A stretch of 64,000 nt of DNA from Gracilariopsis chorda. Lineage: Eukaryota > Rhodophyta > Florideophyceae > Gracilariales > Gracilariaceae. Each line of letters starts with the position of its first letter. Within the stretch, counting starts at the first letter, position 1. Under the pieces are notes generated by a model. The model was not told the DNA's origin. It made no database searches and worked only from the letters and a program-made list of their open reading frames with translations. The position numbers and the translations under genes are program-made. The DNA lies in contig NBIV01000035.1 in NCBI GenBank assembly GCA_003194525.1, positions 62,001 to 126,000 on the forward strand. Direction: 5' to 3'. Positions 6,106 to 64,000 of this stretch are shown here, piece by piece.

Positions 6106-6117
6106 TTCAGGTCTACA

Positions 6118-6258
6118 AAGACGCGCAGAGGCGCAGAGGCGCAGAGGCGCAGAGGCGCAGAGGCGCAGAGGCAGAGACGCTCAGAGGCGGAGACGCGCAG
6201 AAGCGTCCATCATTCTGACGCGCAGACGCGCAGACGCGCAGACGCGTCCATCATTCTG
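6118..6258 (+). repeat. GC-rich minisatellite inside the MULE
   Basis: Tandem 8-base units of GCGCAGAG type run from 6120 to about 6170, then degenerate. A second block of GACGCGCA units follows. Each block ends in GCGTCCATCATTCTG, so the pattern has a higher-order duplication. It follows directly after the 0.6-kb repeat. Confidence 0.85.
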
Positions 6259-6287
6259 CAATCCACTTCAGATTCCTACCTTCCTAG

Positions 6288-6863: not shown

Positions 6864-6914
6864 AAGCAATGGATTAGAGATCTATCAACGGATCTTTTTA
6901 ATTTTCCTCAATCT

Positions 6915-7513: not shown

Positions 7514-7540
7514 TCGATACAGACCAGTTCGAGGTATAAA

Positions 7541-8161
7541 GTGTATATTTCAAAGCTTTCTAACCCTCAAATGACCTCTGCACCTTGTACCGTGGCCTGT
7601 TCTTGCTTGCAGAATTCCATCTCAGGTTTCCCTTGCCGCCAAACTGTCTGCTCTGCAGTTATATACCCAGAACTGGTTCTTCGTTCACCTACCCTGGCTG
7701 ATTTGGTAGGTACCTGTATGCCGATAGAGTCTTTTTTCGAACGGTACTGGAGGCACAACACCGAGGAAGTCTCGCATGCATACTTTATTGGCCTGCGCCA
7801 AAACAATGCAAAACATCATGCTGACTCTGTTTCGCTTAGTCTTGGAAGGGCAATAGAAGTTAATTCAGATAGAAAAATCATCGATAAAGTAAATGTCGAA
7901 AAAGAAATGGGCCAGGAAGCCAAGACATACCTCTCTTGGTCTGACGGAAAAGCTTTATATGACAAAACGCATCGTCTAGCATCTTCATTGGGTCCAATAG
8001 CCATTAATGGCTTGAAAATGATGATGAAAAGTGCCATTGAGGCTCTTTCCCACGGCGAAATACCAGCAGAAATACCTGATAAACTATTAAATTCGAATGC
8101 AGTACGGACAGTGATTGTTGCTGGGCAAAGTAGAACTCAAGAAACTCCTCACAACCGTTAA
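7541..8161 (+). pseudogene. MULE transposase C-terminal part with SWIM finger
   Basis: A 206-codon frame. Near its start is CSCLQNSISGFPCRQ, the C-x-C-x(n)-G-x-P-C-x-H pattern of a SWIM zinc finger with the final histidine replaced by glutamine. SWIM fingers follow the DDE domain in MULE and FAR1 transposases, so the order supports the element's identity. The remainder is a helical tail ending 700 bases before the right terminal repeat. The replaced histidine would impair zinc binding. Confidence 0.6.
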
Positions 8162-8849
8162 AAACCCTTACTATGGTCTTGAAAAGAGCGAAAAGCGGAA
8201 ACACGGATGCATGGAATCATCCACATCCACACGAAAAAAGGACCAGAATACTATGAGGCCACAATCAATCTCATTGAAACCTGTTAAAACGTCTCAAGAA
8301 TGTTCTCAAGAACCTAGAGACTCATAACGATCCATATCACAAAGTGTACCACTTCTTTCAAACATTTCAAGAATAATAATAGACCGTGCGATCGCAAAAG
8401 GTCTTAGAATCCTCTACAAGTAACCATCATAACGAATTAAATAAAGTAATTTTCAACAGGTTCTTCTTGCAGTCACCAGGAGTATACAGTAAGTATGATG
8501 ACTGGAAACCAGACGGATGAGCGGTTATAACCAAAAAAATGAAGCTAGGATGAGTATGATAGAATTGCAGGAAAATTACAGCTTTGAACGAGCCAATTTG
8601 GCCATGAAGAGTAGACAACAGGCAAAAAGATGATTATAGCGAATTAACGAAGCACGAACTAGTACAAAACTGAACGAACAAAATTTTTATGTAGAGCAAA
8701 ACGGTGAGACATCAATGAGTCCAACGCAGACAAGAAGAAAGTATTATGAAAAATAGCCACGCGTTGCAGAGAGAAAAAATAGCAAGAGCGTTTTTGACCA
8801 TGACAAAGCAAGAAGAGTGAATAGAAAGTTGACGAAAGAGCGCCGTGTA
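8162..8849. other. Non-coding 3' part of the MULE
   Basis: No supported gene lies between the transposase end and the right terminal repeat. The short frames here are not protein-like. Confidence 0.45.
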
Positions 8850-9245
8850 CGCAAATTAGACTTAGAAGCTGGTTCAAAAGCTCAACATAGTGAAGAAAAG
8901 ATGGCTTGAGTTGCGGACAGAAGATGGGGATTGAGGCGCTAGGTAGGAACGAGAAGCACCAGGGTAGAGAAAAATTTTTGGTGCGAGCAGTAATGAAAAC
9001 CGTGCGTTTTGCCAAGTTTGAATGTGGAATGCTATGAATTGGGGTTTTGAAATTGGTTGCAGATGGATAAGGACGCCGTGACGGGGTGAAATCCTACTTA
9101 TGATTGGCTGTCTTGCAATCATGCCGCGGCACACGTTGGAACCGGTCCCCCAGGCTACTGCACTCGCTGATCACGGGTGAACTCGTGCTTGTGATTGGTG
9201 GAGTTTCTACTGCTTTTTACTACAAGCAGAGTCAGCCTCCTCCCC
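8850..9245. repeat. Right terminal inverted repeat of the MULE
   Basis: This is the inverted partner of 1925-2350. The shared core includes CTTGCAATCATGCCGCGGC and the run ending CTACTGCTTTTTACTACAAG. Divergence between the two arms is substantial, which points to an old insertion. Confidence 0.8.
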
Positions 9246-15701: not shown

Positions 15702-16058
15702 ACAGAGTTGAGCAGCAGAAACGCCGGGACGACTTACGACTGAGGGGCGCAGCAGTCGTCACTGAAACATCCTCCCGCCTCGGAGATGAACGGGAAGACT
15801 CATAGACACTCTCGCCTTCTCTCGTGAGAATTGGCACGACAAGCGTTGGGAAGTGCAGCAGCCGCACGGGGCCATACGATTGGTTAAAGAAACCGACCCT
15901 TTATACACAGATGTGAAACACGTATTGAATCATTTCATTTCGCTTGTGAACGTCGTCGCTCGGAGTCAACCATGATGTGTCTACCAGATCCATCGCAAGG
16001 CGGTCTATACCGGACAAAGAGCTCTGTTCGTCCTCACGTGCCTGTGGGAGCTGGAACA
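15702..16058. promoter_or_regulatory. Shared divergent promoter of the NUDIX gene and ESF1
   Basis: The two start codons face away from each other across about 357 bases that contain no other gene. Such a short head-to-head arrangement suggests a bidirectional promoter. No TATA box or known operator is obvious, so this is inferred from position only. Confidence 0.45.
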
Positions 16059-18176
16059 ATGAAGACCGAGCTCGCTTCGAAAAACAAGTCATCTTCATCA
16101 AAAAAGCCGTCCCGCAAGCGAACCATCTCAACACCATCAGACCATGACCCCGAGCAACAGACACAAGATGGACGCTTTGCAGATGCACGATGGGACCCCC
16201 GCTTCAGCAGGGTTCCGAAAAGGGCAAAGAGACATGTCCCAGACGAACGCTTTAAGGATAAGCTCAAATCCAATCCCGGTTTCCGAGACCTGGAAACCCC
16301 AGTTGACCGCTTTGGGCGCCCTAAAAAAGGCACTCTTACAAATTCCTTGAAAGAGGCCATACTTAGTGACCGCAGCGATAGCGAAGCCAGTGAGGATCCG
16401 GAAGAGCAGTTCATGCAGTATCAGAACTCGGAAAGCGAAGAAGAGCTCGAGGAAGAGCATGACCGCGACATCGAGGAACAGATTGAATTGGCGCAAGCTC
16501 ACGCTGAACGCATACCACTGGGAAAAGCTACAAATCGATTAGCGGTTCTCGGCCTCGATTGGTCCTCTACGCGTGCTGTGGATGTTTTCGCTAGTTTGAG
16601 TAGCTTTTGTGCGCCTGGTGCGGAGGTCGTTTCGGTCGAAGTGCATCCATCTAAGTTTGGGTTGGAGCGACTTGAACAAGAGGCTAAACTTGGACCGCAG
16701 GTACTTTCCAAGATCGATTTGAAGGTTGTGAAAGATGCTGGCTTGGACCATGCGATCGCAAGCTCTGCGCGAACAGACGCAGTGGAACGTGGGAGTGAAG
16801 AAAGTGACAGCGAGGAGGAGGAGGAGGATGATGATGAAGACCCTGAAGATGAAGAAGACAAGCAATGGAGAGAGCAGCTCGCGTTACGCAAATATGAAGA
16901 GGAGCGTTTGAAATACTATTATGCAGTTGCCGAATTTGAGGATGCGAAAAGTGCGGATGTGGTGTATAAACAGTGTGATGGCGTGGAGTACGCGCAATCG
17001 GGACTGGAGTTTGACCTTCGCTTCATCCCAAATGACATGAAAATTGTGACGAAACCGAGAGATCGCGCGGATAAGATACCGCAGGGATACAATCCCCCTG
17101 AAGTGGCATCATCATCGCTAAACACAAGCAAAGTGAAGTTATCCTGGGATGCGGATGATCCTGAACGCGTGATTTTGAGGCGTAGCGGGATTGGCAAACG
17201 GGAGGAGGATGAACAGAATTTGAGGGCGTATTTGGCCGGATCTTCTGACGAGGAGCAGATGAGCGAAGGAGAACTGGAACGAAAGAAACAGTTATTGTTG
17301 GGTGCAGTGGAGGAGGAGGAGGATGGCGAGGATGGCGATGAGGATATGAATATGGAGATTTCATTTGACCCGGGGATGTTTGAGAAGGGAGAGGATATTG
17401 TAAAGAGGAAGGAGGAAAGAGAAGAACAGGGAGGTGAAACACCTTGGGAAAGGCGTATGAGAAGAGAAAGAGAACGGAAGGCTGAGAAGCGTGAAAAGCG
17501 AAGGGCGTTGATGGAAGCAAGGGAGAATGGAATAGACGTGGACAATGAGGGTGATGGAGAGGTTGAGATGGATGACAAAGGATTTGACGATGCATTCTTT
17601 TCTGAGGAGCGAAGTTTGGAGGAAGCTGAAGACAGGGAGGGAAGGGCGGGGCGGAAGAAGGGTAGCAAGAAGGTTAAGAAGAAGAGAAAGGGTGGAGATG
17701 TGGTTGATGACAAGGATGAGGCGGAGGAGAAAAGAAAGGCGGCGGAGCTGGAATTGGTGTTGATGGAAGATAAGGTGGGGCACTCGAAGGTTACAGGAGG
17801 CGGTAAACAAGGTTTAGTTAATGTAGCGAAGGAGGACGAAGGCGAAAGAAAGCGAGGCGAGAGGAAGCGTAGTCGAGGACGACGGCGATCGCAGCGCGAC
17901 AGCCGGGAAACAGCTGATGGTCTAAACGTGAAGGACGAACGATTCGAAAAGGTATTCAGCTCACATTTGTTCGCGATTGACCCGACACACAGTAAGTTCA
18001 AGAAGAACGAGACGAATGAAAGTATCCTTGCGGAGAAGAAACGGCGCAGCGAACGGGATGTAAATGGCGATGGCGGCGGTGTAGGAGGCGGTAGGGCTAA
18101 TGAAGAACTCCGTGAACTTGCTGGTCGGCTGAAAGCGCGGGCTAAGGCGAAACGAAAGGGCGCTTATAAGAGCTAG
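16059..18176 (+). CDS. ESF1: ESF1-like pre-rRNA processing protein
   Basis: About 705 residues from the methionine at 16059 (MKTELASKNK). The frame is open upstream to a methionine at 15972, but the shorter start begins the lysine- and serine-rich tail usual in this family. Diagnostic segments are DARWDPRFSRVPKR early on; TNRLAVLGLDWSSTRAVDVF, the start of the RRM-like domain; EERLKYYYAVAEFEDAKSAD and SGLEFDLRFIPNDM, its end; long acidic and basic coiled stretches; and DERFEKVFSSHLFAIDPTHS, the C-terminal NUC153 domain. ESF1 is a nucleolar component of the small-subunit processome needed for 18S rRNA maturation. The frame is continuous with no intron. Its stop codon overlaps the stop of the convergent gene on the other strand. 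Confidence 0.9.
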   Translation: MKTELASKNKSSSSKKPSRKRTISTPSDHDPEQQTQDGRFADARWDPRFSRVPKRAKRHVPDERFKDKLKSNPGFRDLETPVDRFGRPKKGTLTNSLKEAILSDRSDSEASEDPEEQFMQYQNSESEEELEEEHDRDIEEQIELAQAHAERIPLGKATNRLAVLGLDWSSTRAVDVFASLSSFCAPGAEVVSVEVHPSKFGLERLEQEAKLGPQVLSKIDLKVVKDAGLDHAIASSARTDAVERGSEESDSEEEEEDDDEDPEDEEDKQWREQLALRKYEEERLKYYYAVAEFEDAKSADVVYKQCDGVEYAQSGLEFDLRFIPNDMKIVTKPRDRADKIPQGYNPPEVASSSLNTSKVKLSWDADDPERVILRRSGIGKREEDEQNLRAYLAGSSDEEQMSEGELERKKQLLLGAVEEEEDGEDGDEDMNMEISFDPGMFEKGEDIVKRKEEREEQGGETPWERRMRRERERKAEKREKRRALMEARENGIDVDNEGDGEVEMDDKGFDDAFFSEERSLEEAEDREGRAGRKKGSKKVKKKRKGGDVVDDKDEAEEKRKAAELELVLMEDKVGHSKVTGGGKQGLVNVAKEDEGERKRGERKRSRGRRRSQRDSRETADGLNVKDERFEKVFSSHLFAIDPTHSKFKKNETNESILAEKKRRSERDVNGDGGGVGGGRANEELRELAGRLKARAKAKRKGAYKS

Positions 18177-18937
18177 GTAGCGTGCAGTTGGAGTTGTGTG
18201 GTGTGGAGAGCGGATTTGAAAAGCTGTAGTGCGGCTTGTAACTTGTCGGAGGCGTGCTGTGCGGCGGGGATGTGATCGTGCACTGCGGACGGATGAAGGT
18301 GGTTTCGAAGGGCGCGATCGATGATCTTCGAAGGCGGTAAACTTGTTTCAGCGGAGCCTGAAGCGAAGGTTTTGCACAATGCTTGCACGAAGTCGATGAA
18401 GTGGGCGTGATGCGCGGGCGAGAGCCAAGCGACGGTGCCGCGCGGCTGGTGGAGTAGCGCGGCGCGTAGGGCGCGTTCGGCGGATAGTAAGTGCGAGAAA
18501 TGGGCGCGGAGAAGATGTAGAGCGGCGGCGACTTGGCGTGGGGGAGGGGTGTTGCCCGTGGGTTGCTGGTCGGCGAGCAGGGCGGCGTAGGCGGCGCGTT
18601 TGGCGCGCCTGTGACGGCGCTGCGCGTCCGAGAGGGCCGTGGAGAGGAGCGCGGTTTGGTCGCCGACGTGCGCCTTCATGGGCGGAGTGGATTTTAGTAG
18701 CTCGGCTACGTCGTCCCAGCGCCGAACGCTTTCTGCGGCGCTTTTGCCCTGCTCGTCTTGTTTATGCACCGGCTTGGTCGCCATTGCGGGCGCGATTCTT
18801 TGTGTCGGTGGTGCCGGACGAACGGCAATGGCGGGATGGCGGCGCTGAAGGGGCGATGCGGACAAGGATGCACTTTTTGTTTGCATGCTGTTTTTGAATT
18901 TGAAGTTGCGAAAAGGTGGTGGAGTTACACGCGGCAC
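18173..18937 (-). CDS. Alanine-rich helical protein of unknown function
   Basis: A 254-residue intact frame, very rich in alanine, leucine and histidine and mostly predicted helix from about 75 to the end. Residues 1-50 are basic, proline- and serine-rich without acids, and could be a targeting sequence; alternatively translation starts at the methionine at residue 52 (MATKPVHKQDEQG). No domain is recognised. The gene is convergent with ESF1, and the two stop codons share the palindrome CTAG. High GC content (third positions mainly C or G) could keep the frame open by chance, but the length and the tight convergent spacing favour a real gene. Confidence 0.5.
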   Translation of the reverse strand: MPRVTPPPFRNFKFKNSMQTKSASLSASPLQRRHPAIAVRPAPPTQRIAPAMATKPVHKQDEQGKSAAESVRRWDDVAELLKSTPPMKAHVGDQTALLSTALSDAQRRHRRAKRAAYAALLADQQPTGNTPPPRQVAAALHLLRAHFSHLLSAERALRAALLHQPRGTVAWLSPAHHAHFIDFVQALCKTFASGSAETSLPPSKIIDRALRNHLHPSAVHDHIPAAQHASDKLQAALQLFKSALHTTQLQLHAT

Positions 18938-19165
18938 AGCGTTTCACGCGCTTACACCATTCTTCCTGTTCTCTTTCTGGCTGCGCCTGTTTTCGATTGA
19001 CTGTTAAATTTGTGTGTGGGCGCCCGCCACCAGTATTGCCATTGTGTAAGAGAGCAAGTTTGTGCGAGAAGACACCGGGTGCATCGCTCTCTCCTTGTCA
19101 ACGTCTCTCGATCCCCCGTTTGCGCACCTTGTTTTGTTTCTTCTTGTGATCCCTCCACGACTACC

Positions 19166-52510: not shown

Positions 52511-53073
52511 GTTTAGTTACACTGCCAGCCACGAGGATTCACAGCGCGCTATGAGAGCTTCGGAAGACGGCTGGAATTGGTCAAAACCGTAGTAACAACG
52601 TCAGTGTTATCGGAATGCTAGATAGATGTGCTAGATCGCAAGTTTCTTAGGCCAAAGCTCAAAAATACTACAAAAATGATAGATTCTGCTAGTTTCTGGC
52701 TCTTGCCAAGTAAAAAAAAAACATTTTTTGCAATTAAAACTTCCATATCTTACAGATACTTGCCTCACCTGCACTGCGCATCGCTAGTTTCAAGTTTGGA
52801 GCAAGTTCATTCTCCACTAAAAGCTAGATACAGATCTCGAAATGGCGCTGGCCGCTGTGCAGCCAGGGCCATTTCGAGCACCCAACCAAAACTAACATTT
52901 TTATTTCCATCTTTTGAATTTCAAACTTCATACTGCCCTAGTTTGACTTCCAACTCATCCTCAGGCACTCATCTGGGCAGCTCTCTCCGTTTTCACACAC
53001 CGGACACACCGCGCATCAGATTCCAATACCACCCATTCCGTCGTCCTAACAGCCTCAACGACACTCCTAAACA
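52511..53073. other. Spacer with hairpin, no gene
   Basis: AT-rich with a poly-A run near 52715. At 52837-52877 arms TCGAAATGGCGCTGGC and GCCAGGGCCATTTCGA pair with one mismatch around a nine-base loop. It may mark the left edge of the following gene block, but no matching right edge is visible. Confidence 0.5.
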
Positions 53074-53862
53074 TCACCAGCCTTCTTCTCCCTCTTCCCT
53101 CTTTCCATGCCTCCTCTTCAACCGACTCTTAACCTCCAATACTTCTTCGTCCTTCTCTTCCAACTTCCTTTTCACGCCCCCTCTACCTCCAGGAGTAACC
53201 GGAGACCCACTCCCGACAGCACCTCCCACCCCACCTTCCCCTCCACCTCCATACATCTTGTTCCGCATATCCTCGACTAGATGCACAGCCCTGTCCACCA
53301 GTAAAAGGCGCTTCTCCAACTCCAAAATCCGTCCTCGCAACTCCTCATTCTCCTTCCACAGCCTCCCCAGCTCCTCTCCCACACACGCCACAACCCCATC
53401 GACGTGCCGCTCTGCCCACACCCCAGCCTCCCTCACCCTCCGGCGCAACTCAGCCACAGCACCCATCGGCACTTCTTCCTCCGACGCACTCAGAGCCATC
53501 CCTCTCAACTCCACGATAACCTCCTCAATACACTCATCCAAACGCTCCTTAAGCCCTCCCCCAGCGCTCCTCAATAGTTCCTTCACATCGCGGTAGAACC
53601 CATCCATTCTTCTCCCTCCACCTCCCCCTACCCCTCCTCCTCGACCACCTTCGCCCGCACATCCCTCCCCACCATACTCTCCCATCATCGTCCCAAACCC
53701 AAGCTCCCCGAGCCCAACAACCGCCTTTTCCTCGCGCCTTTCACCATCACCATCCCCTTCCTCATCCCTTTTCTCCCCCGGAGGCGTCTCTGGCACCTCT
53801 TTCATCTCCGCTTTATCCAACAACGCCAGGAGCTCCTCATCATTCACGGATCTGCTCGACAT
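53074..53862 (-). CDS. Coiled-coil protein of unknown function
   Basis: A 262-residue intact frame. Acidic N-terminus (MSSRSVNDEELLALLDKAEM), a glycine-rich stretch near 60-85, a helical middle, a heptad-like segment at about 165-205 (LWKENEELRGRILELEKRLL), a second glycine-rich linker and a basic C-terminus with KRKLEEK, which could be a nuclear localisation signal. No family is recognised. Codon third positions are strongly G or C, unlike the membrane-protein gene next to it. Confidence 0.5.
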   Translation of the reverse strand: MSSRSVNDEELLALLDKAEMKEVPETPPGEKRDEEGDGDGERREEKAVVGLGELGFGTMMGEYGGEGCAGEGGRGGGVGGGGGRRMDGFYRDVKELLRSAGGGLKERLDECIEEVIVELRGMALSASEEEVPMGAVAELRRRVREAGVWAERHVDGVVACVGEELGRLWKENEELRGRILELEKRLLLVDRAVHLVEDMRNKMYGGGGEGGVGGAVGSGSPVTPGGRGGVKRKLEEKDEEVLEVKSRLKRRHGKREEGEEGW

Positions 53863-54222
53863 GGCTACTAAACTCCCTACCCCAACGGTGCTCCCGTTCC
53901 CAACCCTCTACCACCAAGCGTGCACACTCCAACTACTTATCCATCCCCATTTTTTCAATCCCCCGTTTTTGGCGCCATTTCCCACCGCCACACCACGTGT
54001 CCCACCAATGATCAGAAACAGCCTATCTAGGACAACATTTTACAATTCATTCACCCTAAGTATGTAGAGGTAGAACTACAATGCTATCTAAAGGAATGGT
54101 CGAAAACAAGACCCAAAAGGCCTCGGTTGCTCTCCCAGACTCGCAACATACCTCTCAAAATTGTACTCTAAGTCCATATCCACAGCCATATCTAAAAGCA
54201 ACAACACAAAAAACATTGTGTT
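53863..54222. other. Intergenic spacer
   Basis: No gene or clear signal is seen between the start of the coiled-coil gene and the stop of the membrane-protein gene. Confidence 0.5.
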
Positions 54223-55284
54223 CTATACTACAGGCCCCAGTCCCCTTACATTTTGCAAAGAAGTCTCCATCACAAATGTAGATATCAAATATGTAAATAG
54301 CACAGGGAACACCCTTCCAATAAAGAGCCTAATAGCAGCCACACCATCTGTTATCCCCACCACCTTCTTCAAACCCCCGCATACAGTCCCGCAAACACCC
54401 AAAATCAGCTCACCAATACCTCTCTGCACATATGGAAGCCCTATCTCATTGTTAATGCTGTCCCCCGTCACAAAGAACATCGTCAGCCGCTCCACAACAC
54501 ATGAAAGAGCCCCAAACGTGAACTCACCACTGAAAACTGCAACAGCGCCAGTCTTAAGTTCCGTTCTAAGCGACATTGGCGTTCCCAAGAAATGATAGGT
54601 AACAAAAATACAAGCATTCAACGGCACCAGACCTCCCACTTTGAATCCAAGTAGTCTGTTTCGAATCACAGAAAACCTTCCCAGCCGTTCCCTCCCCCTC
54701 AAACGTACAAACGCCAATGAACCAAAATACCTCCTATGCAATGAGGACACAATATCGAAGAGAAGCCAATGCAGAACCATATCCAATATCACCACAAATA
54801 GCATCTTCAGAGACATCCTATCATCACCCACCACATAATGCATTAAAACTGGTTTCAAAACCCCATAAAGAACACCAATGGCTAATGAAAACATAAACGC
54901 ATATGTGTACCACCCATTAAAGCTGAACATATTTCCAGGGCTTTTAGAAAGGTTTGACGCACTCTCCAGATACTCTATTAGATGCGTACTGCCATACAGC
55001 ACCTGCAAAAAATTTGCATTCGTTAAGATATGATTATGTGTCGGTATAGCGTCGAGGACTTCGTATATCTTCGTCACATCCTCTAAAACTCCAGCAGTCA
55101 GCAACCTCGACGACACTCGCACAACACCCTTCTCCGTATCCGTGATATACCGAATTTCAAGTACTTCATCAAACCTCATCACCGTCTCATTGGGAAAGAT
55201 TTCCACATGTATACGGGTCCTCCGGTCACTGACTAAAAATTGCAAATCGTAGTCATGGTGCGTATGGATGTTCTCAAATGACAT
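54223..55284 (-). CDS. Polytopic membrane protein of unknown function
   Basis: A 353-residue intact frame. The first 120 residues are soluble. Hydrophobic segments lie at about 126-148, 158-180, 216-234, 246-262, 290-310 and 321-340, suggesting five or six membrane passes. No transporter or enzyme signature is recognised. The frame is intact, and the 620 bases upstream are gene-free. Whether it belongs to the host or to the modification-gene block on its right cannot be told. Confidence 0.55.
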   Translation of the reverse strand: MSFENIHTHHDYDLQFLVSDRRTRIHVEIFPNETVMRFDEVLEIRYITDTEKGVVRVSSRLLTAGVLEDVTKIYEVLDAIPTHNHILTNANFLQVLYGSTHLIEYLESASNLSKSPGNMFSFNGWYTYAFMFSLAIGVLYGVLKPVLMHYVVGDDRMSLKMLFVVILDMVLHWLLFDIVSSLHRRYFGSLAFVRLRGRERLGRFSVIRNRLLGFKVGGLVPLNACIFVTYHFLGTPMSLRTELKTGAVAVFSGEFTFGALSCVVERLTMFFVTGDSINNEIGLPYVQRGIGELILGVCGTVCGGLKKVVGITDGVAAIRLFIGRVFPVLFTYLISTFVMETSLQNVRGLGPVV

Positions 55285-55907
55285 GAATCTTCAAGAGTCG
55301 TGAATGAATGTTCAAAAGTCGATAATGAATGTCCCACCTCTTCACTTGAACCAATTTTGTCACTGCTTAAATGCACAGCTTATCATCTTCTCATTTGCTC
55401 ACCCCTTGTCCTTCCCAACACACAAAACAATATTTTGAACCTCTACACGATAAACCCTCTCCACTCTTGTTCATACATCAAGCACGCCACAATGCATTCA
55501 TGTACGAAAAGAACCAGTACTTTCTATATCAACAGAATGGACAATCGCGGTATTTGGCTATAACAAAGAGATCCTTCACACCCGTATAATCACCTTCAAT
55601 TCTCATACATAATCCCATACCCAATTTTACATCCATTCGTGTTTCATATGAGCTGCCCCTTCATTCTCCCCTCCAATACCAATCCCAAGTTTCTTCTCAT
55701 ATTTGTAGACCTTTCTTTATGGAATATAACAAAGCGAAATCTTTGTAGACATCATCCCTTCATTATTACGCATCATTCGAATGAAGTCGCATAAAAAGTA
55801 GTCCCCATCGTAGTAAACCTCTCCCATTCACTATAAACATTTACTATAAAGATCAAAAAGCAATCATCAGATTTAACAAACGTATATCAATAGTTTACTT
55901 ATCATTA
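55285..55907. other. AT-rich spacer, no gene
   Basis: Only short frames without features. Confidence 0.5.
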
Positions 55908-57110
55908 TCAATCGCTTTCATCGTCCTCATCTATCAGACCCTTTGCTCCTTTAGGAACCATTTCACCCTCATCGTCATCCTCCTGTTCATAATCTCCATC
56001 AGTGTTTATTTCCGCTGGTTTCAGTATATTCTCATCGTCCTCCTCATCCGACGGGTTCTCACTTTCGGCTTCTTGGATAACTACATCTCTATCGTCAGCT
56101 TCATCTCCCCGCTCCTCTTCCCCTCCTCCCACCTCAGAGAAATCGCCACGGTCCTCTTCATCATTAAAAAAGGGAGGGCGGAAACTGCTTTGCCTATGCA
56201 CCACATCCGGGAGACTGTATCCCTCAGGTAGAAAGTACATATGGTATCGCATGCAATAGCCTTTCGCTATTGCATCATTGTACCCAGTCCCAGCATGAAA
56301 TACATCCCCTCTTCCAATGAACACAGAAAACGGTGGAACTCTGAACTTCCGAACCATCATAGAAGCCGAAAGCTCTTTCAAGTTACCCCGTGTTATTGTT
56401 AGAGTATGTGACCGTTCACAAACCCAAATCATGAACGCATCCGGTCCCGATGCCATTCCAAAATACCCCGGGTTCACATTTCTCATCCTGTCATTCTCCG
56501 TCAAACCCCTGAAATCCGTGTGTAGCACCTGCCTCGGACAATCCTCTCCAGTACAAAGGATACGGCCACCCATGTGAGGGGCATACATCGTTCCACCTTC
56601 AGAAAACCCGAGATCCACTGCAATCTGACCAAGTCTTGCATCCAACATGGCTCTCTTTCGAGCAAGAACCGCACCGTTTTCAAGTTCCTCAATTCTGTCC
56701 GCAATCCCTGGTTTGGTTGTGATGAAACGCCCCACCGCCTTGATACCATTCTTAAAATCCTTTACCCCTCCTTCATTGACGATCATATTCCAGAAAACAC
56801 GATTCGCTTTGTTCGTGAGATCCGGTTGCGAAACAAAGTCGCGTTCGAAGAAGTCTATCAGTTCTCCTATCACATCTTCGTCCATTTGCAGTCCCCTCTT
56901 CGAAGCCTCACTCGCCATGCCTTCATCTGTCCCGAAATTCTCCAGCACACAAAACCCTCTCTCCGACAGCTCCACTCTCTTCTTCGCAAAGTGAACACGA
57001 GCCAAGTCCTCTCTCTCAAAAGCGGCCATCCATAACGCTTCCTCTTCATTCGATGCCGTTCCTGATGACGGCATCTTCACGCCCAGCACTGCACGTGTCG
57101 TAGTACCCAT
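55908..57110 (-). CDS. Fe(II)/2-oxoglutarate dioxygenase-like protein
   Basis: 400 residues from the methionine at 57110. The double-stranded beta-helix core carries H197-x-D199 (QVLHTDFRG), a bulky middle ending FMIWVCERSH, then GRGDVFHAGTGYND with H272 and GYCMRYHMYFLP with R288. This H-x-D...H...R set is that of Fe(II)/2-oxoglutarate dioxygenases. The tail from about 315 is highly acidic. Substrates of the superfamily range from proteins to DNA bases; in this context nucleic-acid modification (TET/JBP-type) is possible but not shown. The methionine follows directly on a TAG in the same frame as the upstream segment, so the protein may be a separate product or the end of a longer one. Confidence 0.65.
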   Translation of the reverse strand: MGTTTRAVLGVKMPSSGTASNEEEALWMAAFEREDLARVHFAKKRVELSERGFCVLENFGTDEGMASEASKRGLQMDEDVIGELIDFFERDFVSQPDLTNKANRVFWNMIVNEGGVKDFKNGIKAVGRFITTKPGIADRIEELENGAVLARKRAMLDARLGQIAVDLGFSEGGTMYAPHMGGRILCTGEDCPRQVLHTDFRGLTENDRMRNVNPGYFGMASGPDAFMIWVCERSHTLTITRGNLKELSASMMVRKFRVPPFSVFIGRGDVFHAGTGYNDAIAKGYCMRYHMYFLPEGYSLPDVVHRQSSFRPPFFNDEEDRGDFSEVGGGEEERGDEADDRDVVIQEAESENPSDEEDDENILKPAEINTDGDYEQEDDDEGEMVPKGAKGLIDEDDESD

Positions 57111-58388
57111 CTAGTTGTGCATGTTGCGTGACGCACGCCAGTACACAGCATGATGAACCATTCGGAAGTCATCAGGTGATAGGCACTCCGCCCGATGGTG
57201 CTTCCTCAGATTTATCCTCCGCATCCATGGATGGGAATGCTTCACTGCATTTCCGCTTGCAGGCCACTCACTGGGCAACGAGTATACCAGGTCCACCCAA
57301 GACATGTCCGCTCCCATAGCCAGCTCTCCTAGCGTACGTAAGCCAGCTGGAAGCTTGTCAGGATTCTTATTGTCAAAGCTGCCTGCGGTTTGCTGCTCCT
57401 CTGCCTCGTCTTCCTCATCATCCAAAAAGTCCTCCTGAGCTTCATCCTCGCTTGACTCGAGCACAACGATCTCCTGTGCTGTCAACGACCTCTTCAAATC
57501 TCTCCTTTCCATACTACGCAGCACCTCCACCACCTCCTGCGAGATACCAAAGCCAGGTCGCTTCACACCAGGTGCAGTCGGCTTACGATTCGATCGTCTC
57601 TGCCTCGTCACCAGTGGCTCAAAATCAACTGACTCTTCATCTTTATCTTCGTCCAGCACCTCCACTCTACGCTTCTTTGAGATTCGCTTACTTCTTCGAG
57701 GCTCCTGGTCAGCGCTCGGAGGCCCCTGAGCAGCTTACTCATTCAGACCAAGCAACTCGATCACGTCCACATCGGCCGCAGAGGGAGCAGCAGCAGTAGC
57801 ATCCTGTCCCTGCATGCCCGAAAAAGCGCTGGACAACATCCTACGAACCTCTTTCACCTTATTAATCACTCTGGACTCCAGTGAACTGCGTTTCCCTGTC
57901 GTATACCACTTCCCCAGACAAGATATGATATACTTTGACACAGTCTGGTCAGAGTCGCCGATGGTAACCGCGGTATTCATCACTTCCTGTACATTCTTTT
58001 TCTCCTTCATGGAACTCCCCAGCTCACTGCAAATGTCATACGTTCTAGAAGCGCAGTCGAAGAACTACTTTCGGAAATCCTCAAACGGTCCCATCTTCAC
58101 AGTGGCCGCCGACCTCACTCGAACATGTGCCTGTAGACATTGGATAGTAAAACGAAACTTATCCCCTGACATTCCAAGCAGAATATCACTAGACACATGA
58201 GTGATTCCAATTTGAGGCGTCTCCTGCCAAACCACATGGAAGAACTCTAACAGACCGGGATTACGCGCAAACTTCAGAGCAAGAGCAGAATGGCGATTGA
58301 AATGACGTATCTTCCCTTCTTTCCCCTTCGTCTCACTGCTCCACAACACCCCCTTTGATTTGGCTTGGTTTAAGCTTCGAGAACTCAT
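57111..58388 (-). CDS. Linker region between ParB-like and dioxygenase parts, with in-frame stops
   Basis: Three open segments in one frame, 58388-58065, 58010-57735 and 57665-57111, are divided only by single stop codons at 58065-58067 (TAG) and 57735-57737 (TAA); a third (TAG, 57111-57113) ends it. The sequence stays protein-like across each stop. The first segments look helical and may complete the ParB-like protein (for example a helix-turn-helix part). The third is basic then acidic (SSEDEAQEDFLDDEEDEAEE). The start of this frame overlaps the end of the ParB-like frame by 56 bases with a shift of one base. The segments are either a decayed coding region or one read by stop readthrough and frameshifting. 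Confidence 0.5.
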
Positions 58389-59799
58389 ACCAATCCTGCT
58401 CTACGCCATTACGAATAAACGAAACAGCAGTGTGAATCTTATCTGCGAAACACATCACCAGAACATTGGAGCTCAAATCATTCAACATCTTCCCCAGCCA
58501 CAACACCTCATTCAATGTCATTCTCCGGCGGTCGTTCCGTTCCCAAAACGTGACGTTCAAACCAGCAGTAATCCGTGCCCATCTCGCACCATCCTGCTCG
58601 AGGTCCAGTAGAACAATCACTCGATGGAAGCCGTCCACCAAAACCACAGGAACAATCAAACGCCCACTCGCATCAATAGCGTCACGAACCGGCACATCCT
58701 CCAACAGGGCCACCGCAATCGACCCAAGAGAAGGGAGCCAGCCGAATTTCCTCAGTTTGTTCGAAGTATCTCGAAGATGTTTGTCATTCTTCGAACGAAC
58801 CATGTTCTTCGGAAATCGAATGTTGTGGATATCGATTACGCAATTGTGCTGGTCATAATCATCTCGATTGATGTCTAAGGTACCCAAACTGTTATCCACC
58901 TCTTCCGAAGGAACAGCATCACCGGCATCATATAAAACCCTCTCCTCCGGATCAAGATCGTTCCTGGAGAGTACAGGCACCTCTATGACGTCATCATCGG
59001 AGCTTGCTCCGACTTCAGGGCCTTCTCGGTTTCCAGAGCCGCCCGCGAGAGCACCTGATGCTCCTCCACCGCTCTGACGGGTTTTCACCGGACCCTCTCC
59101 ACCGCTCTCAAGGCTCTTCACCGGCGCTTTGGTCACCAAAATGCTTGATGGTGTACCAGCAACAGCGGGAAGGCGCCTGACTTGTCTTGCAGTGGTCCTG
59201 GAAGCTGTAAATCTGTGGACAGTCTTCACATTTGCTCCTGACTGCGGTGGAACCCACTCATTGCCCTCTCCGCCTTCATTTTTGACACTCATCATCGCAG
59301 TGTCCCATGCATATAAACCCGCTGAAACCATCTCCTTCAAAGTTGCGGGCGGTTCCTCGGGACCCCCATAAACATAAGGGTACTTCTCATCTTGGTGTGA
59401 CGAAATATTTGTCTTAAAGATAAACACCAAGTCCTCTCCAGGTCTCTGCGTAGAGGACAGGGGATGGTTGTTTAGTGAACGACAGAATCTCGTCCCCGGC
59501 CCCCCAGCAACCCCCACACCGCGCAATTTCGCCTCTCCTACCTTCACCTTCGCATCACTACTCCCAACTCGTACGAACAGATTGACCTCTGCATCGCCCT
59601 TAAGCACCTGACCCGTATTGCCCCCAATTGATGGCTCAGGGTGGCTGGCAGTTCGGGTGGTGCCCCGGCTCTTCGCTTTGCCTCGCGTGGTCGGCATGTC
59701 GATAACACGTCTCTTTGGCGGAACAGGCTTCCTCGGAGTCCGTTTCTGTGATAGCGCATTTATCTTATTCCCAGTGGAATCCATGGCTGAGTACTTCAA
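58333..59799 (-). CDS. ParB/Srx-like domain protein
   Basis: 488 residues (or 483 from the second methionine at 59784). The N-terminus is basic, with PRKPVPPKRRVIDMPTTRGK that could contact DNA. Residues 235-300 are glycine-rich then acidic. The ParB-like fold spans about 318-442: a start strand (NCVIDIHNIRF), KLRKFGWLPSLGSIAV, the signature LVDGFHRVIVLL at 387-398, and NDRRRMTLNEVLWLGKML, the segment that normally follows it. ParB-fold proteins bind or cut DNA, or hydrolyse nucleotides, in plasmid partition and in phage base-modification systems. Divergent from the methyltransferase gene across the double-hairpin region. Confidence 0.6.
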   Translation of the reverse strand: MKYSAMDSTGNKINALSQKRTPRKPVPPKRRVIDMPTTRGKAKSRGTTRTASHPEPSIGGNTGQVLKGDAEVNLFVRVGSSDAKVKVGEAKLRGVGVAGGPGTRFCRSLNNHPLSSTQRPGEDLVFIFKTNISSHQDEKYPYVYGGPEEPPATLKEMVSAGLYAWDTAMMSVKNEGGEGNEWVPPQSGANVKTVHRFTASRTTARQVRRLPAVAGTPSSILVTKAPVKSLESGGEGPVKTRQSGGGASGALAGGSGNREGPEVGASSDDDVIEVPVLSRNDLDPEERVLYDAGDAVPSEEVDNSLGTLDINRDDYDQHNCVIDIHNIRFPKNMVRSKNDKHLRDTSNKLRKFGWLPSLGSIAVALLEDVPVRDAIDASGRLIVPVVLVDGFHRVIVLLDLEQDGARWARITAGLNVTFWERNDRRRMTLNEVLWLGKMLNDLSSNVLVMCFADKIHTAVSFIRNGVEQDWYEFSKLKPSQIKGGVVEQ

Positions 59800-59840
59800 A
59801 GGTCGCGCTTGCGTTTTCTTGGCACCTGCTGACGTCGAAT

Positions 59841-60168
59841 GCTCCCGTGATCACGTATGACTGGTTCCAAAGAGATGGACGTAAGCACTATATATCGTTT
59901 TCAAGACGGTTCATGACATCCATTGTCGTCAACGTAGCATCCCTGCAATTCCCCTCCCAATTACTTGCATTTCAAAAAGAATTTGATAATATTTTTGGTC
60001 GAGGTCTGTGGTCCGAGGTGGGGTGGTGCTCCATTGCCATTACGATGGAGCGCCAGGACGCAAAATTTTAATTAACATTCATGCCTGGCGCTCCATCGTA
60101 ATCGCAATGGAGCACCATGACACCTTGGACCACGGACCTCGACCCAAAACGAAGAGAAACATAATCCG
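59841..60168 (+). repeat. Control-region direct repeat A with long inverted repeat
   Basis: Direct repeat of 60329-60663. The first half contains GGTTCCAAAGAGATGGACG and ACTATATATCG, a possible TATA element. The second half is an inverted repeat: arms 59997-60057 and 60084-60144, 61 bases each with about six mismatches, around a 26-base AT-rich loop. It lies between the two divergent genes. Confidence 0.85.
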
Positions 60169-60328
60169 TGGCAACCAAGTCAAAAGCGTCTTGCGCATTA
60201 TTCGCAACCGCATTCGTTGCGTCGGTTTGGGCGATTGAAAACTTCTATTGAACCCGACGAACAACTTTTTATTGTTAAAAAAAGCACCGGAGTGGTAGTC
60301 TCCAACAGTGTTACCCCTTTCTTTTGAA

Positions 60329-60663
60329 GCTCCCGTGAACACGCCTGCTTGGTTCCAAAGAGATGGACGTAAGCACTATATATCGTTTTCAAGACGTTTC
60401 ATGACATTCATCCGTCGTCATCGTAGCATCCCTGCAATCCCCCTCCCAATTACTTGCATTGCAAAAAAAAAAAATAAACTGATACTTGTTTGGTCGAGGG
60501 CCATGGTCCGAGGTGTCGCGGTGCTCCATCGCGAACACGATGGAGCGCCAGGCATGAATTTTAATTAACATTTCGCGTCCTGGCACTCCATCATGTTCGC
60601 GATGGAGCACCATGACACCTTGGACCACGGTCCTCGACCCAAAACGAAGAGAAACATAATCCG
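60329..60663 (+). repeat. Control-region direct repeat B with long inverted repeat
   Basis: Second copy, 488 bases downstream. Its arms are 60492-60552 and 60579-60639, around a 26-base loop. The arm sequence in the TTGC...ATTA part of copy A is replaced on both sides by TCGCGAACA, so both arms changed together. The end lies 21 bases before the start codon of the rightward gene. Confidence 0.85.
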
Positions 60664-60684
60664 AAGGAAACGGGTTCATTCAAG

Positions 60685-61719
60685 ATGCACGGAACCGGAG
60701 AAGAGCTTATTGATGCTTATCTTGCAGTTCGTGATGACTACGCAGCGACGAGGCAAAATGTGGATGCGCCGATAAGTTTGAAGCTCAATGACTTTGTGGA
60801 GTTCGCCGTACAAAGTAGCAACGTTCATGACTCTGCCAAGAAAATGTTTCTCACTCTCATCGGACCGGATTATATCTCGTATTCGGACTCCGAGCTCCGT
60901 AACATGTCTCTCAGAGGCCCTCCACGTCAACTCTATCTTATGGCAAGAGTGGTGGACGTAAAGGACCGTGAAGAAGACAGGCGTGTAAGGGACTTTTGGA
61001 AGGTTTCTTGTAAAAGGGAAGGGCTTAAAGGAATTCCCCGTAACGTGTTGCTATCTGTCTTTTCCAAGTCCCGTGTTCTGGGAGCAACCAAGAAATCTTG
61101 CGCTTTCCACACGGATCCTTGCACCGACTTTGAAATGGACATTGGGTTGTCTATGGTGCAACAGATTGCCGTGGATAAGAAAGGAAGTGGTAGGAAGAGG
61201 AAAAAGGGCATGGCAGCTAAGAAGTTCTCGAAAGTGAGTTTTTCGGACAGGACCCAGAGTCAGAGAGTCGGGTATGGTGTGCAGCTGGTGACCAGGGCTT
61301 GGGATTGTTTGGCCCAATTCCTCGGGTTTCCCAAGGTTGAGGTTATGATCTTGCCTTACATTCGACTCGACAATATCAGTGTAGTCTCCACCGATATCGC
61401 ACAACGCTCCATGGGCTTCCAACACAAAGATTGTTCCAAACAGTTTGCGGAGGAGAAGAACGTCACCACCCTAGAAGAAAACGTTACCAAATGGGCATGG
61501 AATCTGCCGGACCCAGTGGATACAGCGCTTCGCCTTTGTGCAAAAGAATACCTTTGTGACCTTTCTAATGTGGTGGTACAAGAGAAACTGTTCGACATCT
61601 CTGCTCCCAGCAATTGGGATGCCCTTAAAAGGTTCATCATCACGAGAACGAGACTTTTCCCTCTGCGGTTTGAGAACTTTGGTGAATCTCTTGTCCCTAT
61701 GGTTCAAGAGGCCATATAG
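60685..61719 (+). CDS. Unknown 344-residue protein, first part of the methyltransferase gene?
   Basis: An intact frame from MHGTGEELIDAYLAVRDDYA. It holds CAFHTDPCTDFE near residue 140 and a basic patch (KKGSGRKRKKGMAAKKF) near 170 that could bind DNA or direct nuclear import; the rest is mixed helix and strand. No family is recognised. It ends with TAG at 61717-61719, but one base over the sequence runs on as an open frame into the acidic linker and the methyltransferase, so it may be the N-terminal domain of one large protein. Its start lies just beyond the second control repeat. Confidence 0.55.
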   Translation: MHGTGEELIDAYLAVRDDYAATRQNVDAPISLKLNDFVEFAVQSSNVHDSAKKMFLTLIGPDYISYSDSELRNMSLRGPPRQLYLMARVVDVKDREEDRRVRDFWKVSCKREGLKGIPRNVLLSVFSKSRVLGATKKSCAFHTDPCTDFEMDIGLSMVQQIAVDKKGSGRKRKKGMAAKKFSKVSFSDRTQSQRVGYGVQLVTRAWDCLAQFLGFPKVEVMILPYIRLDNISVVSTDIAQRSMGFQHKDCSKQFAEEKNVTTLEENVTKWAWNLPDPVDTALRLCAKEYLCDLSNVVVQEKLFDISAPSNWDALKRFIITRTRLFPLRFENFGESLVPMVQEAI

Positions 61720-62045
61720 AGCCTCTGAAGCTCATTGCATTGCATGGAAGCAATGTCAAAGTACATCAAGCTGTGAAACCAGAGCCCGCAGAAGACGTTG
61801 ACATCATTATGGAGCCAGTAGACATTGGTACGGCTGGTGGTGGGAACGAACGTGCTGAGCGTGTGGAAGGTGGTGATCAGGGTGAGTTGGAAGAAGTGGA
61901 AGAGATAGAGATGGTAGAAGATGCAGAACTTGGTACTGCGGAACGTGGTACTGCACCAAAGGCCACTGAAGGACTGCAAACAACAGCTTTGTCGCAGAAC
62001 TTATCGTATGATGTCGAAGGCACGGGGATTCGTGCACCACCGTAA
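61720..62045 (+). CDS. Acidic linker frame ahead of the methyltransferase
   Basis: An open frame rich in glutamate, glycine and valine (ELEEVEEIEMVEDAELGTAE). It is closed by a single TAA at 62043-62045, after which the same frame continues as the methyltransferase. It has no methionine start of its own (the nearest start-like codon is TTG at 61740). It mirrors the acidic linker ahead of the dioxygenase on the other arm. Confidence 0.45.
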
Positions 62046-62054
62046 CCTACGACT

Positions 62055-62954
62055 TTGGATGATGTGATAGCTTACAAGTATTGTGAGAAGGAGATGTCCC
62101 GCAACTTCCGTCTCCACAACTGCAAGCTCGAAAACCTCATCGAAGTTGACGACAACAAGTCTGGCGAAAGCGAGGTATCTATTGAAGGAAGGGTACAGTT
62201 CCTGCTTTCCGATCCGCCATATGGGACTCGTTTTGAGTGTCGTTTGGAGAACAGCGAACACGATATTCTGACAGAGAAGGGCATGAGCAGGTCAGCGAGG
62301 AGGTCGTCAAAGCTTCTACGTCCTGGTGGACATATTATACAGTTCTGCTCATGGGATGAGGTACCGTTGTGGCGGAATGTGCTACGGAACGTTACCTACA
62401 TGGATGACTCTGATACGATGCGTTACTCCTTTGTCGTCGACGAACAACCCCTCCATTTCGTACGGTCTTTAGGTAATACGACGGGTAACATAAGGAGAAG
62501 AAGTTGCCGGTTGCACCAGACGACAGAATACGCTGTACATGCTGTTCGTTCTGGAGTTCCTTATGCACAACAGCACCCGATGGTCAAATATGAGAACTTC
62601 AATTATGTTGCTTCACGATACCCAGCGTATCATGCAATCATGGATCAGGTGCCGCCGATGTCAAATAGTGAGATGCTCATGTGGTCTGTGAAAAACCCGG
62701 ATGGGAAGTATACGAGGAAGAGGGTGCGACCGGAACAGAAGTGTAGGGCACTGTTGAAAGAGCTGATTTGCAGCTTCAGTCAGCCAGGAGACCTCGTGAT
62801 GGACATGTTTGCCGGAACGTTCTCGACAGCGATGGCGTGCATGGAACTGCCCAAGCATCGGAAGTATTTGGGGTGTGAACCGGACAAAGCTTGCTTTGAA
62901 CACGCCAGGCATGGCGCTATTGTTCGCTTCGCTTCCATAATACGGGAAGGATAA
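62055..62954 (+). CDS. DPPY-type DNA methyltransferase
   Basis: About 299 residues. The catalytic tetrad is in LLSDPPYGTRF at about 50-60. The cofactor-binding motif comes later: QPGDLVMDMFAGTFSTAMAC at about 243-262, followed by KYLGCEPDKACFEHA. This order (catalytic motif first, FAG motif last) is that of the beta group of amino-methyltransferases acting on adenine N6 or cytosine N4 of DNA, common in bacteria, phages and large DNA viruses of algae. The target site cannot be deduced. The central 150 residues would hold the recognition part. The first methionine-like codon follows the in-frame TAA by nine bases; the true start is uncertain. All visible catalytic residues are intact. Confidence 0.75.
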   Translation: MDDVIAYKYCEKEMSRNFRLHNCKLENLIEVDDNKSGESEVSIEGRVQFLLSDPPYGTRFECRLENSEHDILTEKGMSRSARRSSKLLRPGGHIIQFCSWDEVPLWRNVLRNVTYMDDSDTMRYSFVVDEQPLHFVRSLGNTTGNIRRRSCRLHQTTEYAVHAVRSGVPYAQQHPMVKYENFNYVASRYPAYHAIMDQVPPMSNSEMLMWSVKNPDGKYTRKRVRPEQKCRALLKELICSFSQPGDLVMDMFAGTFSTAMACMELPKHRKYLGCEPDKACFEHARHGAIVRFASIIREG

Positions 62955-63191
62955 ACTGATATTGAGAAGAGCCAGGAGCTTCGAAAGATGGCCCATTGTG
63001 TTTCCTCTGCATTCCCAATGGGAAGAAGCAGGCACACCGTGTTATGGAGGGCTGTCGACGGATTTCCACCGTACCAACTTCTTCCCCCACACCTTGTCGA
63101 CTTTCTCTCCACTTTGTGGCAAATTGAAATTCTAGGGAAGTTGGGAAGGAAGAAAGCTATGGATTGATGGCCGAAGGAGGTGCAGGGAAGA
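62955..63191. promoter_or_regulatory. Spacer before the SET-domain gene
   Basis: 237 bases without a gene between two plus-strand genes. No clear promoter element is recognised. Confidence 0.3.
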
Positions 63192-63838
63192 ATGAATCTG
63201 GAGAACATGAATTCTCTATTGGCAATGGAGGCTGTGCAATATGGGTTGCGAGTGGGCAAGTCTACTATTCGTCACGAAAAGGCTGGTGTTGGAGTGTTTG
63301 CAACTCGTCGAATTGCTGCAGGCGAGGTAGTGTGCTATTTCTACGGGACGTTAGTTTATCATGACCTTTCGAATCGGAAAGAAGTGCACAAGACCTACGG
63401 GGAAAGAGTCATGGGTGTGACGAAGGATCGCTTCCGCAAGTATGCGGTGGAGATAGAAGTCTACGGTCAACAGTTCCGATCACTTCCTCATCGAAAACAG
63501 CTGACAAATTGGCATGGAAAACAAGCAAACCCCATTTTATGGCTGGTTCCTGCCCCTTTTTGTATTGCGGGGTATATCAACGATTCAAAGTACGTGGAAG
63601 GAGATAAACAGTTAGATGCCATGGTGGATGGCCTCCTGAAAAAAGGGAGGCTAATGTGCGAATGAAACGGACACCGGGAGTGGGACGAACACCAGGGGGA
63701 ATAACGGACTACAAACTTATTAAGATGGAGGCGACAGCCAACATAGAGCAAGGAGAGGTACTCTTCGCCAGATACGGTGATGTTTATGACTGGCAAACCC
63801 ATTTGAATGTGGAGGATGGAATGATAGTCATTGATTAG
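63192..63838 (+). pseudogene. SET-domain protein methyltransferase, one-base shift
   Basis: The frame starts at the methionine at 63192 (MNSLLAMEAVQYGLRV follows after five residues). SET motifs are visible: GVGVFATRRIAAGEVVCYFY near 35-55, IAGYINDSKYVEG near 130 (where R-F-I-N-H-S is usual), and, after a change of frame at about 63633, NVRMKRT and ATANIEQGEVLFARYGDVYD. The shift falls in the run CTGAAAAAAGGG and equals loss of one A. SET enzymes methylate lysines, most often on histones; stand-alone small SET proteins also occur in chloroviruses. The usual Cys-rich post-SET region is absent. It is either a recent pseudogene, a sequencing error or a shift site. Confidence 0.65.
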
Positions 63839-64000
63839 TTTGTTGTTATAAACCTTTGTCCACAGCTTGGCTAAAGGGCGAAGCTTATTATTTGAACGGA
63901 TGTGTAGTCCTAACTTAGGAGAACATCACTTTTCGGTAAGGATAGAAGATAAAAAGCGATATAGATGTGACACAGAAACGTCCATTTTCGGTACCACGGA
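63839..64000. other. Window end, no gene seen
   Basis: 162 bases after the SET gene without a recognisable feature. No terminal repeat of the gene block is visible before the window ends. Confidence 0.4.

Follow-up and report, generated by a model that had tools for sequence, protein, structure and literature searches.

A red algal repeat family read as Plavaka-type transposons with putative writers and erasers of epigenetic marks

The window analysed here is a stretch of 64,000 nucleotides from the red alga Gracilariopsis chorda (assembly GCA_003194525.1, contig NBIV01000035.1, positions 62,001 to 126,000 of the forward strand). On balance, the locus at its right-hand side is read as a decayed copy of a Plavaka-type (CMC/CACTA-like) DNA transposon with terminal inverted repeats (TIRs), whose family would carry, beside the transposase, two divergent fusion genes to write and probably erase epigenetic marks. 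These genes are called A and B below. An initial annotation of the window had described four separate genes at 55908–63838: a ParB-like gene, a dioxygenase, a DNA methyltransferase and a SET gene, arranged outward from a repeat-rich centre and forming a mobile or virus-derived cassette. All four sets of motifs are present in their respective open reading frames (ORFs), the outward arrangement is real, and a red algal source was guessed correctly. The cassette of four genes gave way to two fusions once sister copies were compared. Its extent likewise proved to be part of a larger unit, a broken copy belonging to a repeat family. The host assembly comprises 91.3 Mb in 1,081 contigs, which are cited by C-numbers; the window corresponds to C35:62001-126000.

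Sister copies agree on the left and right boundaries of the element. The window copy extends from 52599 to position 69497 in the numbering of the window continued beyond its end (window-frame) and measures 16,899 bp. Its in-window part is 52599–64000 (no strand assigned), and its right end lies outside the window. Eleven of the fetched copies extend to the left end; their match begins at 52595–52599 in ten cases and at 52605 in the other. On the right, the listed copies that extend to the end stop matching at query positions 5594–5601, at approximately C35:131497. The ends are inverted repeats of the form CGTCGGTGTTCTCG-nn-ATGCTAG. The left repeat (52599–52621, plus strand) reads CGTCAGTGTTATCGGAATGCTAG in the window copy and is directly preceded by a 2-bp duplication, AA. 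When up to three mismatches are allowed, the TIR pattern is found at 286 genomic sites, compared with one for the reversed control. Identical dinucleotides flank 12 of the 17 copies for which both ends were read (binomial 3e-10, assuming a match rate of 8%). These 2-bp target duplications were read by eye as AA in the window copy, CA in C46, AT in C63, TT in C114 and TA in C1. Further examples are C77, C273, C7:438883, C12, C14, C15 and C3, and the five end pairs lacking a duplication are C90, C212, C134, C286 and C7:341272.

The family is widely dispersed. A DNA search of the host genome with window positions 55000–64000 returned 58 matches. Thirty-three are long, namely the window itself and 32 others with 88–98% identity, and the other 25 are short matches to the central repeats (81–91%). 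The copies on C230, C90 and C199 align over positions 227–9001 of this query at 93–95% identity. Twelve copies in a tier of about 74% identity share one methyltransferase score, 530.1 bits, in a tblastn search of the host genome; together with the tiers of copies, this equality suggests young copies and recent movement. Bacterial contamination was considered as a source and rejected, as relatives of the methyltransferase are found in Gracilariopsis chorda records (BWQ96 names).

Beyond the window, close to the right end of the element, the minus strand encodes the transposase. Open frames matching the Plavaka profile PF18759 (cut-off 26.3 bits) are present in the C242 copy (L062; E = 1.5e-18, 67.6 bits) and in a 7.1-kb relative on C15 (L064; E = 1.7e-21, 77.3 bits). 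The profile gives 114 matches in the host genome, of which four fall short of the cut-off; 14 control genomes gave no match. Candidates for the C(2)C and H(3-4)H motifs that Plavaka transposases have between the second D and the last E, CTRC/CPRC and HLLDH, were seen by eye in the frames of P0002 and L064. Between subfamilies, the ratio of nonsynonymous to synonymous substitution rates (dN/dS) of the transposase is 0.26. The family termini, CGTCGGTG..CACCGACG, fit neither of the two published types, TGT..ACA of PlavakaA and CATCA..TGATG of PlavakaB, as given in the pertinent part of PMC12730594. The element is thus Plavaka-like by its transposase and neither PlavakaA nor PlavakaB by its termini. 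The locus can be called mobile because TIRs, 2-bp target duplications, a Plavaka transposase in sister copies and dispersed copies are all present, and in this respect the initial annotation is borne out.

Shorter forms of the element exist. Three of them, on C134, C286 and C273, measure 10.7–11.0 kb. C286, the only one of the three to be read, passes directly from 53184 to 57072 and so lacks the dioxygenase part. The 7.1-kb C15 element keeps a short piece that aligns to the end of the dioxygenase, plus a probable membrane protein. Given that copies exist without the bulk of both fusion genes, the element does not need the enzyme block in cis. Elements of 7.0–8.0 kb on C12, C7, C14 and C15 have nearly the same TIR, with left-type sequence at either end. 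The short C12 element also contains a methyltransferase match.

Gene A lies on the minus strand and in the window copy is represented by three ORFs. The N-terminal part (58333–59799) includes a ParB-like region at about residues 315–440 with the signature LVDGFHRV. A middle part (57111–57665) is split by one in-frame stop, at 57111–57113, from the C-terminal, dioxygenase-like part (55908–57110). The latter displays the motifs QVLHTDF, GDVFHAG and RYH, with H197-x-D199, H272 and R288 of the ORF as the candidate residues. In copy C204 (L041), the ParB-like, middle and dioxygenase-like parts form a single uninterrupted frame of 1,417 amino acids, and the frame of C550 is equally long (1,417 amino acids). 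Both signatures (LVDGRHR; HTDF/GDIFHAG/RYH) are retained in a 1,309-residue frame of the deep subfamily C172 (L076), at 36% identity. Because sister copies hold both parts in one frame, the dioxygenase and ParB-like ORFs are portions of one gene. The window copy of gene A is broken at the stop already mentioned and at 58335, where the ParB-like frame ends.

A constellation of HxD, a second histidine and R or K is the mark of 2-oxoglutarate- and Fe(II)-dependent oxygenases. An alignment of five dioxygenase-like sequences, four of them from the host genome and one from Gracilaria domingensis, shows HxD, H and R without variation. The dioxygenase ORF of the window is 31% identical over 79% to the G. 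domingensis protein FGB62_382g03. When compared with the dioxygenase half of gene A, FGB62_382g03 is 34% identical, and no ParB-like half is visible in this comparison. Protein searches recovered two relatives of the dioxygenase and, among the best 8000 candidates scored, one of the ParB-like part. In a first hhalign comparison with nine plasmid ParB proteins, the ParB-like part scored no better than 30 shuffles. A second comparison, in which the alignment was trimmed and the deep relative L076 added, placed the N-terminal box I of ParB in register with a score of 22.7, which was reached by one of 300 column shuffles; as trimming and members were altered between the two tests, this fraction is not a clean probability. 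The HHalign probability of the second alignment is 4.8%, and its score falls to 14.9 without L076. A relationship of this part of gene A to ParB is therefore suggestive only. The dioxygenase and ParB readings are plausible from motifs, to which the ParB reading adds a weak profile match.

Gene B is encoded on the plus strand. Its N-terminal part, orfA (60685–61719), comprises a domain that has no assigned family. An acidic linker (61740–62045) is interrupted by an in-frame stop at 62043 and is followed by an N6/N4 DNA methyltransferase part (62055–62954) with DPPY and FAG motifs, and then by a SET-like part (63180–63839) whose frame is broken at 63663. The methyltransferase matches PF01555 with E = 1.7e-17 and 64.6 bits (cut-off 26.7) and a PHROG DNA methyltransferase with 1.4e-21, and its matches in the PDB are to the DpnA and CcrM sequences. 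This sequence-based assignment is firm. Seven relatives were found by protein search, six from G. chorda and one metagenome protein. The SET-like region of copy L018 aligns with PF00856 over 105 of 105 positions (E = 7.3e-4, 20.4 bits; cut-off 22.4). Its best PDB matches, KMT2C (E = 0.19) and SETD8 (E = 0.44), are not significant, and the SET assignment is borderline on these scores. Copy L021 encodes orfA and the methyltransferase in a single frame of 786 amino acids, and copy L018 the methyltransferase and the entire SET-like region in one of 518. Since sister copies carry such fused frames, the genes of the initial annotation are broken pieces of two divergent fusions. In the window copy, read without correction of its frames, orfA ends at 61717, stops follow at 62043, 62952 and further downstream, and the SET frame ends at 63663. 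The copy looks dead.

Genes A and B diverge from a centre that is rich in palindromes. Two repeat units of 332 and 338 bp lie between them, neither assigned a strand. The first (59837–60168) has 66-nt inverted arms at 59992–60057 and 60084–60149, and the second (60326–60663) has 64-nt arms at 60489–60552 and 60579–60642. The arms enclose an inner palindrome, GCTCCAT-N10-ATGGAGC (no strand), which occurs at 60028–60051, 60090–60113 and 60523–60546: three times in the window, where 0.01 occurrences are expected. A 30-nt pattern of the window-type palindrome, with up to three mismatches, has 224 genomic sites and none in the control. When 100 listed sites of these 224 were clustered, 61 of the 62 clusters had a ParB-like or methyltransferase locus no more than 6 kb away. 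Palindromes with a related core stand at the same place in C242 and C204, and each of the three subfamilies read in this region has them between the two genes. C242 has two perfect palindromes of 32 nt; in C204 the two palindromes span about 90 nt each, and the 43-nt arms of the first are complementary throughout. From its position and sequence, the centre looks like a control site for the divergent genes A and B and is a natural candidate target of the ParB-like part.

The modules are linked across the host genome. Searches by tblastn gave 98 ParB-like, 112 dioxygenase-like and 132 methyltransferase matches, which correspond to 77, 90 and 126 loci. Neighbourhoods of 15 kb around the methyltransferase loci make up no more than 4.1% of the genome, yet they contain 63 of the 77 ParB-like loci; 50 of the 77 have a dioxygenase locus within 6 kb. 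A Plavaka match is present within 15 kb of 72 of the 126 methyltransferase loci and within 20 kb of 40 of the 90 dioxygenase loci. In a deep tier of about 40–49% identity, dioxygenase and methyltransferase point outward from a common centre on C179, C435, C473, C539 and C1065. Single-module clusters account for 86 of 205 (Plavaka 30, dioxygenase 25, methyltransferase 24, ParB-like 7) and may be due to contig ends, score limits and short forms. The possibility that the genes occur singly and unlinked is thus answered in the host genome by the ParB-like loci near a methyltransferase, and less favourably by the dioxygenase loci and the single-module clusters.

Selection on these genes is visible when subfamilies are compared. 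Between them, dN/dS is 0.12–0.22 for the dioxygenase part, 0.19–0.32 for the ParB part, 0.13–0.28 for orfA, 0.15–0.33 for the methyltransferase halves (0.24–0.33 against C242) and 0.13–0.31 for the SET part (0.13 against C242). The C204–L076 pair is saturated and yields no ratio. Within the window-like subfamily, the values are 0.43–1.49, as expected of copies that decay once inserted. Parts of both genes are under purifying selection between subfamilies. The low ratios therefore indicate that these parts were under selection during the time in which the element was mobile.

Several observations weigh against the reading of this family as a Plavaka-type carrier of epigenetic enzymes. With respect to the transposon, about 857 bp of the transposase region found in other copies are missing from the window copy, and neither of the two transposase pieces left there (L031:3061-4458 and L031:4931-5656) has a Plavaka match. 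The termini, CGTCG..CGACG, are unlike either published Plavaka terminus. The C15 element is without most of genes A and B, yet it has target duplications and an open transposase frame. Linkage is incomplete: a methyltransferase locus lies within 15 kb of only 48 of the 90 dioxygenase loci, and a dioxygenase locus within that distance of 48 of the 126 methyltransferase loci. With respect to gene A, profile libraries support neither half. PF02195 (ParB_N) has no match in the profile search of the host genome or in Pfam and NCBIfam searches with whole or trimmed sequences. No dioxygenase family, TET/JBP included, is among the Pfam matches for the window, P0005, P0006, L041 and L076 regions, and NCBIfam and PHROGs gave no relevant family for gene A. 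Sequence searches of the PDB with the ParB-like or dioxygenase alignments were unconvincing; one histidine kinase at 0.013 was judged a chance match. The distant relative P0006 (27% identical, a fragment on a contig of 1,234 bases) lacks the D and the second H. AlphaFold2 models were unusable, with a predicted local distance difference test score (pLDDT) of 31.6 for the dioxygenase (three sequences) and 34.0 for the ParB-like region (two sequences). With respect to gene B, the SET match of the window falls under the Pfam cut-off of 22.4 (PF00856, E = 6.7e-4, 20.5 bits, 37 of 105 positions). The fusion is known from two overlapping frames, L021 and L018, and from no one frame that runs end to end.

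Other genes of the element are less widely shared or have no family match. Near the left end, an ORF of 262 amino acids (53074–53862, minus strand) has a counterpart of 259 amino acids in the 7.1-kb form and no Pfam match. Next to it, a hydrophobic protein of 353 amino acids, probably a membrane protein as judged by eye, is encoded at 54223–55284 on the minus strand. Many copies are without this ORF (53707–55225 is skipped), and the 7.1-kb form L064 has it as an ORF of 413 amino acids (L064:1460-2701). The dN/dS between the window protein and that of L064 is 0.34. On this ratio, the hydrophobic protein common to both is under selection. The C242 copy holds an ORF of 277 amino acids (L063:5973-6806; IIFGRGHIGSLL) with no Pfam match. 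It is absent from the window copy and suggests a variable cargo slot near window position 55775. A further gene, C, occupies window-frame 65045–66538. In C242 it is a frame of 637 residues 3' of gene B (L062:3900-5810) that looks like a coiled coil by eye. Gene C has no family match, and its dN/dS between subfamilies is 0.20. To the right of the element, at L031:7133-8498 (window-frame about 70633–71998), reverse-strand frames resemble a Ty3/gypsy integrase by eye, so that mobile elements may lie nested in this neighbourhood. In an unrelated region of the window, 16000–19000, GC skew is strong (0.29–0.38).

Modification of DNA and histones, as proposed by the initial annotation, is plausible in graded fashion: firm for the methyltransferase, borderline for SET, and for the dioxygenase and ParB-like parts dependent on motifs and weak evidence. 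The Plavaka transposase would perform cut-and-paste transposition, and the enzymes of genes A and B would act on chromatin state instead. The most likely role of these genes, as far as can be inferred, is control of the element's own chromatin state. (i) The ParB-like part may act as a tether that holds the dioxygenase-like part at the palindromes of the promoter common to both genes, or at another site on the element. (ii) The tethered dioxygenase-like part could then remove a host silencing methyl mark. (iii) Gene B would write two kinds of mark, N6- or N4-methylation of DNA and methylation of histones. (iv) These marks might keep the chromatin of the element open or self-regulated. Two outcomes of such control remain, an element that is kept active or one that is limited. 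Anti-silencing is favoured because fungal Plavaka elements with TET/JBP genes, oomycete transposons with SET genes and plant Vandal proteins provide precedents, as presented in part of PMC12730594. In its fullest form, the proposal is a complete epigenetic circuit on a DNA transposon. A site-directed eraser, composed of a ParB-like clamp and a demethylating dioxygenase acting at the palindromic centres, would be paired with a double writer composed of the amino-methyltransferase and SET. Together they would set and reset a heritable, element-specific chromatin state, with N4-methylcytosine (4mC) or N6-methyladenine (6mA) in place of 5-methylcytosine (5mC). This full version is tentative.

The aim could also be copy-number control and not evasion of silencing. 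In that case, the element's DNA and histones would receive repressive marks from its own methyltransferase and SET parts, with the oxygenase of gene A as an off-switch. An N6_N4-type methyltransferase and a SET-like domain do share one frame here. In bdelloid rotifers, the captured bacterial N6_N4-type enzyme N4CMT marks transposons and is proposed to silence them together with SETDB1; from this loop, as described in the section of PMC8885841 that bears on it, it follows that amino-methylation and histone methylation can also silence. The rotifer protein, however, is a host enzyme and not transposon-borne, and self-silencing is of little benefit to an element unless it limits damage. Self-limitation is doubtful as an account of the family.

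A role in the chemistry of transposition is unlikely. Binding of transposases can be sensitive to methylation, as in the cases of Dam and Tn10 and of Spm. With these precedents, methylated ends might couple transposition to replication or to target choice, and the ParB-like part might pair or segregate the ends, leaving dioxygenase and SET secondary. Purifying selection on the modules is compatible with such a function. The palindromes, however, sit between genes A and B, away from the TIRs. Short forms also have target duplications, and the C15 element, which was read with its duplication, is without most of both genes.

The genes could also be passengers of host or bacterial origin that bring no benefit to the transposon. 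Some ORFs, those at 54223–55284 and L063:5973-6806, are indeed confined to certain copies, and the many single-module clusters point the same way. This explanation is very improbable: it is disfavoured by dN/dS, which is 0.12–0.33 between subfamilies for parts of genes A and B. In addition, gene A is intact at 36% identity, and the divergent order of dioxygenase and methyltransferase is kept in the deep subfamily on the five contigs listed above.

Derivation from a viral DNA-modification island, the other origin offered by the initial annotation, has next to no probability and was rejected: N6/N4 methyltransferases do occur among phage families, as the PHROG matches show, but the five matching phage records cover at most 26% of the methyltransferase, no capsid, polymerase or packaging match is present among the ORFs scanned, and scans of viral contigs with six methyltransferase, two ParB-like and two dioxygenase-like short peptide patterns confirmed no relative, at a sensitivity that can miss far relatives. 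Searches of phages by tblastn with the ParB-like and dioxygenase pieces gave matches at E values of 6–7 only.

Transposons with one captured epigenetic enzyme are already known. The present family unites a DNA writer with a probable histone writer in one frame. A second frame pairs a putative eraser with a putative DNA clamp, and this ParB-like/dioxygenase-like fusion is kept across deep divergence. If active, the family is a ready test system for how a transposon steers host silencing, and for whether amino-methylated DNA bases serve as an epigenetic mark in red algae. Natural variation should be usable for this purpose because the copy tiers suggest recent movement. The claim of the initial annotation that such a system is undescribed needs qualification. 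Transposon-borne dioxygenases and SET genes are known in fungi and oomycetes, as part of PMC12730594 relates; the fusions and their combination were not found among the titles and abstract openings listed from the open-access literature.

The closest known systems are the Plavaka transposons with TET/JBP dioxygenases of Agaricales fungi (Kojima 2025, PMC12730594). According to the part of that paper that treats them, they resemble the present family in a Plavaka transposase, TIRs, 2-bp target duplications and a dioxygenase-type gene inside the element. The family described here differs in its CGTCG..CGACG termini, its red algal host and its extra methyltransferase–SET fusion, and its dioxygenase-like part has no TET/JBP match and is fused to a ParB-like part. 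HarbingerS and MuDR transposons of Phytophthora likewise carry a SET-type gene on a DNA transposon. They belong to other transposase superfamilies, and the passage on them in PMC12730594 mentions no fusion to a DNA methyltransferase. The anti-silencing proteins of plant Vandal (MuDR) elements are transposon proteins that oppose silencing of their own element, the role proposed here. The Vandal protein is described in PMC12730594 as a regulator that acts sequence-specifically, and the corresponding passage mentions no methyltransferase or oxygenase. Cytosine methyltransferases of dinoflagellate and charophyte retrotransposons, as covered in a portion of PMC5890265, are also DNA methyltransferases encoded by transposable elements; theirs is a C5 enzyme on a retrotransposon, whereas an amino-methyltransferase on a DNA transposon is seen here. 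The bdelloid N4CMT/SETDB1 loop shares with gene B a bacterial-type N6_N4 methyltransferase in a eukaryote, tied to histone methylation at transposons. N4CMT is a host gene with a chromodomain, in the part of PMC8885841 that describes it, while gene B is a transposon gene with its SET-like part in the same frame. Next to the rotifers, the present family would be another example from eukaryotes in which an N6/N4 methyltransferase of bacterial type is linked to histone methylation.

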